From the IMG/VR virus record IMGVR_UViG_3300014962_000043, positions 1-27,414 of that record: a stretch of 27,414 bases of DNA, one strand, 5' to 3'. The notes below the pieces were generated by a model, which saw only the letters and a program-made list of their open reading frames with translations, was not told where the DNA came from and searched no databases. Both the position numbers and the translations under genes were made by a program. How positions within the stretch are numbered: the stretch's first letter is position 1; each line of letters begins with the position of its first letter. This document shows, piece after piece, positions 18,049-26,454 of the stretch. The stretch is from a virus.

Positions 18049-18290
18049 CAGTGCTTGTCCTGCTTATTGTCAAGCCTCTCAAATATCTGGCGGCAAATAT
18101 CCTTGATCTCTTTCAACCCTTCCGCAAACTCGTTCTTCTGAACATAGCTTGTCGGAAGAGCCACCTCGATGCGCTTAACATCATCTCTTAAGGATTTTAC
18201 CGCAGACCAGAGTTCACGCGCAGCCCAGCCAATACCAGCCAGAACGATGCCGCCAAGGATGTTAATGACAAACTGCGCGTCCATTTTCAT
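18048..18290 (-). CDS. Small membrane protein with coiled coil (possible holin, XhlA-like)
   Basis: The 80-residue protein has one N-terminal hydrophobic segment (FVINILGGIVLAGIGWAA, residues 7-24). A charged helical region follows (LWSAVKSLRDDVKRIEVAL and GLKEIKDICRQIFERLDNK) that can form a coiled coil. This layout is common in small phage membrane proteins sometimes annotated as XhlA-type hemolysin/holin. It sits two genes before the endolysin, so a holin role is plausible, but one TM plus coiled coil is also compatible with a fibre-linked accessory. ATG 18290 overlaps the upstream stop (ATGA) with AGAGG 4 nt before it. ATG 18284 is an alternative. Confidence 0.65.
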   Translation of the reverse strand: MKMDAQFVINILGGIVLAGIGWAARELWSAVKSLRDDVKRIEVALPTSYVQKNEFAEGLKEIKDICRQIFERLDNKQDKH

Positions 18291-19870
18291 GCTGCCTCTC
18301 TGTTTGGCGGCCCTTTTTTAAGGAACTTTAAGTTACCTTGTAAACGGGCATCATGTGGAGACATTTCGACAGCCTTCTTGGCGTGTTCGACAGATATGTC
18401 ATGCAGACCAAGATGATAGGCTGCTATGCTTGCCAAATCATGTGGCTGATGCCCCCAGACTTCAGGGTCAACCGTGTAGACCATTTCGCGGTTGGTGATA
18501 CGAAGAGCCCTCATGGCTGCCGCGAAACACTCTTCCCACCGATGCTGCCGATACATAAGCATCGCCAACTCGCACCAAGGCTCCCGCGTGTTCGGGGCTT
18601 CATAAGCCGCCATCTGAAACATTCGCTCAGCGTTATATGTGTCGCCAAGCTCGTTGTAGCAGCGGCCCATGACGCGGTATGCGTAGCACCTTTCGTTTGG
18701 CCAGTCGGCGCGCGGCAGATTCAGATACCGTTCACAGGCAGCAATGCTTTCACGCCATTTGCCATGAAAACTTAACTCACGAGCGTAATAAAAGGCATTG
18801 CGGGGGCAGTCTGGGTCCTCTTTGACAGACAGCTCAAGAAGATCGAGGTACTGACCACGAGATTTTGTCGGATCAGGCTTATGGACGACCAGAAGCATGT
18901 CTGTATCCGCCCAGACCTCCTGTACGCGCCCATCTGCAACCGGATATTCATGGCACGGGTGATGCCAATGATATCCATGGCGGGCATGAATCTTCTCATA
19001 CTTGAAAGCTATCCCGCAGCCCCAATCAAACATGTACCGGAGACGAGTTGTCTTCCCAAGCTCCCAAACACGCTCAATCTCTTCCCGCCACCCGGGCTGG
19101 AGAACCTCGTCTAGGTCCAAAGAGATACATATATCAATATCACGAGGTACCAAAGCAAGTGCAACGTTGCGAGCATGGTCAAACCGCCAAGGAGTAATGC
19201 AAATGTGATTGACAACAGCACCACACTTGCGAGCTTTTTCAACTGTCCCATCGGAGCTTCCAGTATCAGAGATTGAAACTAGATCAGCTTCCTTGGCGGC
19301 TTCGCAAAACCGTTCAACAAACTGCTCTTCGTTTTTGCTAATAGCGTAGACACAAATCTTCGGTCTTAGCTTGTGTTTCGACCAGATATAGACTCCAATT
19401 TCTCCGTCAATTGTATTCCAATCAGAGCTACCAAAAGCCTCTACGAAGCTTTCATGCGTCCAGTTGTCTGTGACATGGGTCTCATGCGGATTCCCGTCGT
19501 ATTCTCCCTGAGGATGATAGCCAATGGGAATACTAACGACCACTGTATCCGCGCACGCACGAAGCTTCTTAATAAGAGCTTTAGCTTCGTCGGTCGTCAT
19601 ATGCTCTAGGACATCTCCAGCGATAGCTACATCATAGTGCTCGTCTGGTTCCCATTTACGCGCATCAACAACAATCAAATTGTCGTATAGCGTATCTAAC
19701 CGATACTTTTCGACATATGGCTGCCAGATTTCAATTCCAGTCATATGAGAGTCATCAAACATCAGGGCGTATGTGCCGCAGCCACAGCCAACATCTAGGA
19801 TTTTCTCGTGAGGAATACGCGAGACAATCCTTTTGATTGATTCCTTCCCGCGTTCAGAGCTAAAAGGCAT
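18287..19870 (-). CDS. Fused SAM methyltransferase - family 2 glycosyltransferase - TPR protein
   Basis: The 527-residue protein has three parts. Residues 1-165 form a class I SAM methyltransferase: ILDVGCGCGTYAL (24-36) is motif I, GIEIWQPYVEKY holds the acidic ribose-binding end, and DVLEH lies at 86-90. Residues 171-345 form a GT-A family 2 glycosyltransferase: CVYAISKNEE, then SDTGSSDGT (201-209), and a DxD metal site in LDLDE (251-255). Residues 350-515 are TPR-like helical repeats (YAYRVMGRCYNELGDTYNAE, CELAMLMYRQHRWEEC) that may hold a polypeptide acceptor. GAGG lies 6 nt before ATG 19870. The gene starts 1 nt after the 60-residue protein, itself just downstream of the collagen-like fibre. 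Sugar donor, acceptor and methyl target are unknown. Fibre decoration is the best inference; host surface modification is the alternative. Confidence 0.85.
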   Translation of the reverse strand: MPFSSERGKESIKRIVSRIPHEKILDVGCGCGTYALMFDDSHMTGIEIWQPYVEKYRLDTLYDNLIVVDARKWEPDEHYDVAIAGDVLEHMTTDEAKALIKKLRACADTVVVSIPIGYHPQGEYDGNPHETHVTDNWTHESFVEAFGSSDWNTIDGEIGVYIWSKHKLRPKICVYAISKNEEQFVERFCEAAKEADLVSISDTGSSDGTVEKARKCGAVVNHICITPWRFDHARNVALALVPRDIDICISLDLDEVLQPGWREEIERVWELGKTTRLRYMFDWGCGIAFKYEKIHARHGYHWHHPCHEYPVADGRVQEVWADTDMLLVVHKPDPTKSRGQYLDLLELSVKEDPDCPRNAFYYARELSFHGKWRESIAACERYLNLPRADWPNERCYAYRVMGRCYNELGDTYNAERMFQMAAYEAPNTREPWCELAMLMYRQHRWEECFAAAMRALRITNREMVYTVDPEVWGHQPHDLASIAAYHLGLHDISVEHAKKAVEMSPHDARLQGNLKFLKKGPPNREAA

Positions 19871-26100: not shown

Positions 26101-26454
26101 CGCCCAATAACCCAACGCGCCGCCCGCGCCCGTTGCACCTGTCGCGCCAGTGGGACCAGTCGGACCAGTAAGACCAGTTGAGCCCGTGGGGCCGGTGGGG
26201 CCGGTGGGGCCGGTTGGACCCGTCAATCCAGTATCGCCCGTAGGCCCAGTTGGGCCAGTATTACCCGTTTGTCCAGTTGATCCTGTCGGTCCAGTCGGGC
26301 CAGCAACACCCTGAGGCCCTGTCGGTCCCTGAGTAATGCCCGCGACTTGAGAAAGAGTCGTCCTACGCGATACACCCGCCTGTACAATCTCAATTTCCTC
26401 AGCGCCATTCAGGCTGATAGCGGGCGGGAGATTCGGGATCGGTGTATCAGCCAT
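20125..26454 (-). CDS. Giant collagen-like tail fibre/spike with C1q-like and pectate-lyase beta-helix domains
   Basis: This 2109-residue fibre has several parts. Residues 1-42 ([16 protein letters not shown]) are a virion-attachment type N-terminus. Collagen-like Gly-X-Y tracts lie at 43-112, 273-508 and 563-798, mostly GPT. A C1q/jelly-roll-like domain fills 113-272 ([22 protein letters not shown]) and a small module 509-562 ([20 protein letters not shown]). Two tandem Ig-like modules (943-1054, 1069-1180) precede fibre beta regions. A pectate-lyase-type right-handed beta-helix starts at 1577 ([18 protein letters not shown], then [14 protein letters not shown]) and runs to about 1990. Inside it, 1770-1830 resembles a small carbohydrate-binding module ([17 protein letters not shown]). 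A repeat of the 1406-1470 module ends the protein. Host glycan binding or depolymerisation is inferred; no catalytic pair is identified. GGGGA lies before ATG 26454. Confidence 0.85.
20188..22239 (-). repeat. Two separated copies of a 65-residue module flanking the beta-helix
   Basis: Fibre residues 1406-1470 (22045-22239) and 2025-2089 (20188-20382) align without gaps, 37 of 65 identical, around the shared core [10 protein letters not shown]. One copy precedes the beta-helix and the other closes the protein. Confidence 0.85.
22915..23628 (-). repeat. Tandem duplicated 112-residue Ig-like module in the fibre
   Basis: Residues 943-1054 and 1069-1180 align without gaps with about 83 of 112 identical residues (AHGL-x-[40 protein letters not shown]). 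The DNA differs at many synonymous sites, so the duplication is old or the copies came from related sources. Confidence 0.88.
24061..24768 (-). repeat. Collagen-like tract 3 (fibre residues 563-798)
   Basis: A Gly-X-Y tract of the same type has five [16 protein letters not shown] interruptions (starting at residues 605, 651, 682, 725 and 753). It ends in GASPAVGG before the beta-rich domains. Confidence 0.93.
24931..25638 (-). repeat. Collagen-like tract 2 (fibre residues 273-508)
   Basis: The Gly-X-Y tract is dominated by GPT. It is broken six times by an 8-residue G-A-A-S-T-V-A-G type insert (starting at residues 288, 310, 335, 354, 415 and 491). Between inserts the glycine register is exact. 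Confidence 0.93.
25268..25362 (-). repeat. Exact 32-bp direct repeat inside collagen tract 2
   Basis: The same 32 bases occur at 25268-25299 and 25331-25362, 63 bp apart (seven Gly-X-Y codon triplets). A second near-by pair of at least 32 identical bases lies at 25541-25572 and 25598-25629. Elsewhere the GPT codons vary at synonymous positions, so these look like recent duplications by slippage or recombination. Confidence 0.85.
26119..26328 (-). repeat. Collagen-like tract 1 (fibre residues 43-112)
   Basis: An unbroken Gly-X-Y register of 23 triplets runs from residue 43, mainly GPT with [12 protein letters not shown] and GNT. It joins the N-terminal attachment segment to the C1q-like domain. 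Confidence 0.93.

Follow-up and report, generated by a model that had tools for sequence, protein, structure and literature searches.

A phage glycosyltransferase predicted to act on Gly-X-Thr collagen-like fibres and its fused methyltransferase

Introduction

Does a phage glycosylate its own collagen-like fibre, and does it methylate the sugar? This question is raised by the IMG/VR virus record IMGVR_UViG_3300014962_000043, whose 27,414 bases were analysed as a whole and are called the window here. On the minus strand, a gene for a fibre of 2109 amino acids (aa) (26454-20125) is followed by an open reading frame (ORF) of 76 aa (20102-19872), the ORF of a 527-aa enzyme (19870-18287) and an 80-aa ORF (18290-18048); a phage lysozyme and virion genes lie beyond. 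The initial annotation had read this order as fibre, small gene and a fusion of a methyltransferase, a glycosyltransferase (GT) of family 2 (GT2) and tetratricopeptide repeats (TPR), and the coordinates and frames of fibre and enzyme were borne out. In Bacillus, collagen threonines of the protein BclA carry O-glycans that include O-methylated sugars.

By comparison with related loci and known systems, it is highly probable that ORF 18287-19870 encodes a glycosyltransferase dedicated to the Gly-X-Thr collagen fibre. As a whole explanation, we consider it probable that the phage encodes its own enzyme for collagen O-glycosylation together with a methyl cap.

Results

The enzyme and its nearest folds

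The enzyme (18287-19870, minus strand) was characterised by Pfam, PHROG and a predicted structure. Three parts were distinguished, all on the minus strand: a methyltransferase domain (aa 1-165; 19376-19870) with PF13649 (Methyltransf_25) at aa 24-105, a GT-A domain of GT2 type (about aa 168-385; 18716-19369) delimited by alignment and predicted structure, and a TPR-like helical part (about aa 386-520; 18311-18715) recognised by predicted structure and PDB profile matches. Residues 170-520 matched phrog_13126 'beta-1,4-glycosyltransferase' (E 9.5e-101). Neither the GT2 nor the TPR model of Pfam exceeded its cut-off in the window enzyme; the GT2 model did so in close relatives. The AlphaFold2 model (mean predicted local distance difference test, pLDDT, 90.5; predicted template modelling score, pTM, 0.70) showed GT-A and TPR parts clearly, with the helical part C-terminal to the GT domain. 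The fusion claimed at the outset was confirmed in this way, for the methyltransferase by Pfam and for the other parts by predicted structure. D252, D254 and E255 were invariant across 40 aligned rows and form a metal site of DXD type. The methyltransferase has a class I fold dependent on S-adenosylmethionine (SAM) and a SAM motif, in which D26, G28, G30 and other residues were kept in 35 fused rows.

Foldseek comparison with PDB gave the peptide S-glycosyltransferases SunS and ThuS as the top six matches. With VIA-align they reached Z 21.4-22.3, and the next glycosyltransferase, WrtF, 18.0. A profile search of PDB sequences returned GmaR (E 2.7e-7), ThuS (7msk, 2.2e-6) and SunS (0.001), besides many TPR and methyltransferase chains. 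The solved structures closest to the GT-TPR unit thus belong to enzymes that act on polypeptides. An enzyme altering the host surface (lipopolysaccharide or capsule), for instance against superinfection, is quite improbable. It would agree with names given in databases ('UDP-glucose LOS-beta-1,4 glucosyltransferase', for example) and with WrtF, a polysaccharide fucosyltransferase, which ranks next among the folds (Z 18). However, the fit of SunS and ThuS is better, also across the helical part, and the linkage with Thr-rich collagen described below is unexpected for a surface-sugar enzyme.

Linkage with threonine-rich collagen in phages

Pfam Collagen matched the window fibre in seven stretches (E 1.1e-52). 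Strict counting gave 456 residues in 12 Gly-X-Y runs (aa 43-786), and a looser count 492 residues in 13 runs within aa 43-798. The repeat is rich in Gly-Pro-Thr, as first described, and the former length of about 540 residues was slightly high. Among 152 strict triplets, 87 were GPT and 128 had Thr in position Y (Y-Thr).

Relatives of the enzyme are encoded on 385 IMG/VR stretches, and the phage-locus counts rest on the best 80 of these. Collagen was called for an ORF when 36 or more residues lay in runs of at least six Gly-X-Y triplets without Gly in X or Y; non-redundant counts refer to clusters at 95% identity. Many records are fragments, and some loci are partly dependent: L005 and L082 share one contig, as do L069 and L254, and L010/L011 and L036/L037 are seemingly near-identical. 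A collagen gene was found upstream on the same strand in 21/21 loci with at least 7 kb of upstream DNA, 22/23 with 6 kb, 24/27 with 4 kb and 36/49 with 2 kb. By clusters, the first three values were 17/17, 17/18 and 18/21. Enzyme and collagen genes overlapped in some loci and lay up to 6.3 kb apart in others. L068, L069 and L072 have collagen directly behind the enzyme as well; the gene order is therefore not frozen. In this set, taking the largest collagen per locus, Thr occupied position Y in 49-93% of triplets. GAT rather than GPT was the most frequent triplet in L116 and L117, yet Thr filled Y in 99%, which suggests that Thr itself is the residue under selection.

Three controls were made. 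Relatives of the phage lysozyme (n = 80) comprised 79 newly fetched loci with neither enzyme nor collagen, and L006 with both. The 45 newly fetched relatives of a tail gene contained both genes in 7 cases, the enzyme alone in 10, neither in 28 and collagen alone in none. For those 16 with at least 8 kb upstream, and thus room for both genes, both were present in 6 and absent in 10, with no discordant locus (by clusters 4 and 9; Fisher p 0.0014). The third control started from collagen, with the first 50 of 67 Thr-rich records (Y-Thr at least 0.6) and the first 50 of 72 Thr-poor records (below 0.2); intermediate records were excluded, and two mis-called rows, L206 (not collagen) and L248 (antisense), were dropped. 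A match to phrog_13126 was present in 19/50 Thr-rich versus 4/50 Thr-poor records (Fisher p 6e-4), and a close match (E up to 3.6e-78) in 14/50 versus 0/50 (Fisher p 4e-5). All four matches of the Thr-poor records were weak (E 6e-18 to 7e-28). When only records of at least 20 kb were counted, phrog_13126 was found in 15/29 Thr-rich (10 close) versus 1/24 Thr-poor records (0 close).

Given the lysozyme, Thr-poor and tail-gene controls, chance adjacency of enzyme and collagen has low odds. The same applies to hitch-hiking in one lineage: none of seven window proteins was present in 15 of the 16 enzyme loci found via the collagen pattern, although these are short stretches. Co-occurrence of Gly-Pro-Thr collagen fibres and the enzyme gene, named in the initial annotation as its check, was thus seen in related and unrelated phages under control, and also in bacteria.

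Isolated phages and bacterial genomes

For isolated phages, gene neighbourhoods were examined in three of 74 phage records. The GT of the Actinomycetia phage DSL-LC01 (358 aa) is 44.8% identical over aa 164-516. Its gene row comprises two Thr-rich collagen genes, a YHYH gene, a gene of the Trp_halogenase family and the GT. The Trp_halogenase-family gene (E 5.5e-50), which lies with the YHYH gene between the two collagens and the GT (L439 13451-15022), perhaps encodes another fibre-modifying enzyme.

Phage DNA as the acceptor, which was suggested for glycosyltransferases of Planktophila phages (PMC10202952), is very improbable. Phage DNA glycosyltransferases exist according to work cited in PMC12619734; a thymidylate synthase and a deoxycytidylate deaminase are annotated in DSL-LC01, and a thymidylate synthetase in PaBG. 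PF00303 (thymidylate synthase/hydroxymethylase) was nevertheless detected in 0/20 hand-picked enzyme-bearing records, many of them fragments, and modification of DNA leaves the TPR part and the collagen linkage unexplained.

In the jumbo phages PaBG and HRDY3 (L460 12019-13293; L461 11998-13104) a distant homologue lies among structural genes. Its acceptor may be another virion protein.

In GTDB genomes, collagen was found in 14 of 20 enzyme loci, in 12 of them immediately ahead of the enzyme, at most about 120 bases away. The exceptions were L455 with collagen about 0.9 kb before the enzyme and L451 with a Thr-poor collagen (0.17) after it. Y-Thr was low in L457 and L451 and 0.40-0.75 in the other 12. 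Collagen was not detected in L440, L441, L450, L456, L458 and L459; upstream DNA amounts to about 0.6 kb or less in four of these, about 2.3 kb in L440 and 5.8 kb in L459. L440 and L441 are probably phage sequence, because proteins of the window's phage lineage are present. Among 196 genomes of the class of L442, that genome included, the enzyme was encoded in six, with collagen directly before it in 4/6. One of these four collagens is Thr-poor (0.24). No collagen was found at L466, nor at L464, which has just 0.36 kb upstream; L463 and L442 belong to one genome. The collagen pattern occurred in 21 of the 196 genomes, three of them with the enzyme. Hence, linkage of the enzyme with Thr-rich collagen is observed directly in phages as well as in bacteria.

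It is improbable that the enzyme glycosylates a different virion protein, such as capsid or tail tube, and that the link to collagen reflects a shared location among late genes. There is precedent for phage enzymes that glycosylate capsid and tail tube (Freeman 2023, cited in PMC12363180 and PMC12619734), the enzyme gene lies within the structural module, and the homologues of PaBG and HRDY3 stand among structural genes without collagen. On the other side, tail-gene relatives with at least 8 kb upstream but without collagen also lacked the enzyme, collagen was again the partner in bacterial assemblies, and order and distance of the two genes vary.

Methyltransferase and additional modules

With the window and L001, its refetched copy, included, 77 enzyme ORFs carry a fused methyltransferase; 42 lack it, some of which are cut at contig ends (11/118 enzyme ORFs in all). 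Near these 42 ORFs, some of them cut at contig ends, an unfused copy of the same methyltransferase was detected in no case. Fused and unfused forms did not separate on the GT tree, and some pairs of the two were near-identical, for example L002/L044 and L017/L080; the methyltransferase was therefore often gained and lost. A stand-alone relative of the methyltransferase domain (19376-19870), gene 145 of the mycobacteriophages Phrappuccino and Settecandela, is 35% identical.

A Gly_transf_sug domain (DXD; GT32-like) was fused in 16/118 relatives, after the TPR part in seven and before GT2 in nine. As a separate overlapping gene it was present in L023 and L024, and none was found among 319 loci without the enzyme. 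Moreover, the distant relative in L209 carries a second GT2. Three other distant GT2-TPR relatives were observed with a GT4/GT1-type domain (L377 1045-3267), with GT9 and a methyltransferase (L276 5626-8475) and with a weak sulfotransferase match (L312 4300-5883). In L234 a Thr-poor collagen ORF (428-2931; GPK, GPQ, GPA) adjoins a distant GT (422 aa, E 6e-18); it is possible that this pair represents a second GT subfamily with a different acceptor. We read the enzyme family as built around an initiator to which parts for extension and capping may be added.

From the fusions of methyltransferase and glycosyltransferase we infer that the methyl group goes to the sugar, and consider this rather probable for the window enzyme. 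Alternatively, the fibre might be glycosylated as proposed and the methyltransferase modify protein, for instance at one chain end or on a side chain. This is unlikely, with some grounds in its favour: the methyltransferase fold is generic, and the protein N-terminal methyltransferases NTMT1 and NRMT2 were among the structural matches (Z about 16). For a glycan cap, by contrast, one expects the methyltransferase to share its chain with one or two glycosyltransferases, in varying order, and to be present in one and absent from another of near-identical enzymes. Both were found and are consistent with sugar methylation, short of proof.

Further features of the window

Besides the collagen repeats, other parts of the fibre (20125-26454, minus strand; probable acceptor) were delimited from the ORF list, Pfam and the triplet count. 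By triplet count, collagen block 1 covers aa 43-117 (26104-26328), and further blocks with short breaks cover aa 273-493 (24976-25638) and aa 563-798 (24061-24768). A globular segment (aa 110-272; 25639-26127) separates the blocks. The C-terminal domain of BclA matched it below threshold (PF18573, E 0.0092, 16.3 bits versus a cut-off of 38), and a sequence search of PDB yielded nothing significant and no solved relative. A pectate-lyase/rhamnogalacturonase-like domain (PF12708, E 8.5e-16) is located at aa 1578-1798 (21061-21723). The protein is taken as a tail fibre because of its place among structural genes and its PHROG matches, which are largely driven by the repeat.

Two small genes flank the enzyme on the same strand. 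The 76-aa ORF between fibre and enzyme (19872-20102, TTG start, from the ORF list) had no match in Pfam, PHROG or NCBIfam. The 80-aa ORF directly after the enzyme (18048-18290) matched phrog_462 (E 8.3e-10); relatives of it stand behind the enzyme in 59/97 loci, at the next place in 47.

Elsewhere in the window, two glycine-rich proteins of 208 and 207 aa (10934-11560 and 16835-17458) are alike by eye and have no Pfam match. The 1220-aa protein at 1723-5385 matched ART-PolyVal at aa 914-981 just below the Pfam cut-off (E 6.1e-7). The 1185-aa protein at 5388-8945 has an internal Peptidase_S74 chaperone match (aa 317-368), followed by a transglycosylase-like part.

Discussion

The acceptor residue, the sugar, the methyl target and the benefit are inferred as follows. 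The GT2-TPR core would bind the new fibre chain via its TPR part and transfer the first sugar to Y-position threonines of the Gly-X-Thr repeat. By analogy with SgtA of C. difficile, this sugar would be N-acetylglucosamine (GlcNAc) from UDP-GlcNAc. The fused methyltransferase would then most likely cap the glycan by O-methylation. Where relatives have a second glycosyltransferase, in the same chain or encoded by an adjacent gene, this would probably lengthen the glycan. Optional methyltransferases and second glycosyltransferases fit capping and extension. A stabler triple helix and a shielded fibre stalk are the likely benefit. Stabilisation by glycosylated threonine is described for vent-worm collagen (Mann 1996, cited in PMC6953826). 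For a Thr-poor E. coli prophage collagen, the recombinant protein was reported as not glycosylated (PMC3368898).

The proposed link between enzyme and fibre is supported by the co-occurrence, by the SunS, ThuS and GmaR matches and by the published SgtA analogue. Several observations weigh against it. In the fetched DNA of L021 (6.7 kb upstream), L032 and L044 no collagen was found. Of the 50 Thr-rich records, 31 had no phrog_13126 match, including 14 of the 29 with at least 20 kb, which speaks against a strict rule of pairing. The idea that these collagens are accompanied by another GT2 failed, as PF00535 was present in only 2/31; in the Thr-poor set it exceeded the cut-off in 0/46, with one weak match. 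Thr-rich phage collagen can thus do without the enzyme, or with others that were not sought. Within the sampled bacterial class 18/190 enzyme-less genomes carry the collagen pattern, and no collagen was found within about 25 kb of the distant homologues in PaBG and HRDY3. Finally, sgtA precedes bclA3 in the published account, whereas the window enzyme follows its collagen gene, and SgtA is likened to it by architecture. Thr in Y is common in bacterial collagens generally (31.6% over all bacteria; PMC8968730), and on its own it is therefore no proof of glycosylation.

A broader reading seems slightly favoured: in many environmental phages, the glycans of collagen fibres would be assembled by a modular system. 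Its constant part, a GT2-TPR initiator, would recognise Gly-X-Thr repeats, and extending glycosyltransferases (GT32-like, GT4/GT1-type, GT9-type, second GT2) and caps (methyltransferase, perhaps sulfotransferase) would be fused, lost and reshuffled. Close phages would then show different glycan coats on a like stalk, with one collagen-GT family common to phages and bacteria.

If the fibre is indeed glycosylated, this would provide a function for phage proteins that are widespread but so far carry only the family name 'beta-1,4-glycosyltransferase' or are interpreted as protecting DNA. It would also explain how hydroxyproline-free Gly-Pro-Thr collagens of phages could be stabilised and shielded. 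Planktophila phages were described with glycosyltransferases and collagen-like proteins, for which DNA protection or cell-wall change was suggested (PMC10202952). Open-access literature searches, as far as the texts were accessible, yielded no account of a phage collagen fibre glycosylated by a neighbouring phage enzyme. In the phage fusions, candidate extending and capping domains are joined to an initiator of SgtA-like architecture, so the question which enzymes extend and cap the SgtA-BclA3 glycan can be tested directly. Glycosylated collagen might also be made with these fusions as single-chain tools.

Comparison with known systems

Phages modifying their own virion proteins with their own enzymes are known from mycobacteriophages, which glycosylate capsid and tail tube (Freeman 2023, cited in PMC12363180 and PMC12619734). 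This resembles our proposal, but the cited accounts, in the parts available, mention no collagen. A virus enzyme acting on the virus's own collagen, as proposed for the window, is L230 of Mimivirus, described as glucosylating hydroxylysine and as having a lysyl hydroxylase domain (PMC9614988). Unlike L230, the 527-aa enzyme has no lysyl hydroxylase match in Pfam, and its three parts are otherwise assigned.

SunS and ThuS, which are glycocin S-glycosyltransferases, and GmaR resemble the window enzyme in that a helical or TPR part comes after the GT2-type domain, and they act on polypeptides, as proposed here. GmaR is reported as a flagellin O-GlcNAc transferase of GT2-type and TPR architecture (PMC9638930). 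Their acceptors are a bacteriocin cysteine or flagellin, in contrast to the collagen proposed here, and they have no methyltransferase. The exosporium protein BclA of Bacillus is described as a Gly-Pro-Thr collagen with O-glycans (PMC8968730, PMC9614988); the weak match to its C-terminal domain in the phage fibre is a further likeness, but BclA is cellular.

The closest parallel is SgtA-BclA3 of C. difficile. According to PMC7157674, SgtA has 358 aa, a GT-A domain and four TPRs, and its gene lies immediately upstream of bclA3; in vitro it transferred beta-O-GlcNAc onto threonines of the collagen repeat, and in test peptides also onto serines. A GT-A and TPR enzyme beside a Gly-Pro-Thr collagen gene is likewise present in the window, in agreement with the published architecture, and GT-only relatives such as that of DSL-LC01 (358 aa) are similar to SgtA in size. 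The target of SgtA belongs to a bacterial spore coat, that of the window enzyme would be a phage fibre. The available text of PMC7157674 reports neither a fused methyltransferase, which the window enzyme has, nor a fused second glycosyltransferase for SgtA, and states that enzymes extending or capping its glycan were not found. Without being filed as an SgtA homologue, the window enzyme is alike in architecture, and the system probably works like SgtA-BclA3.

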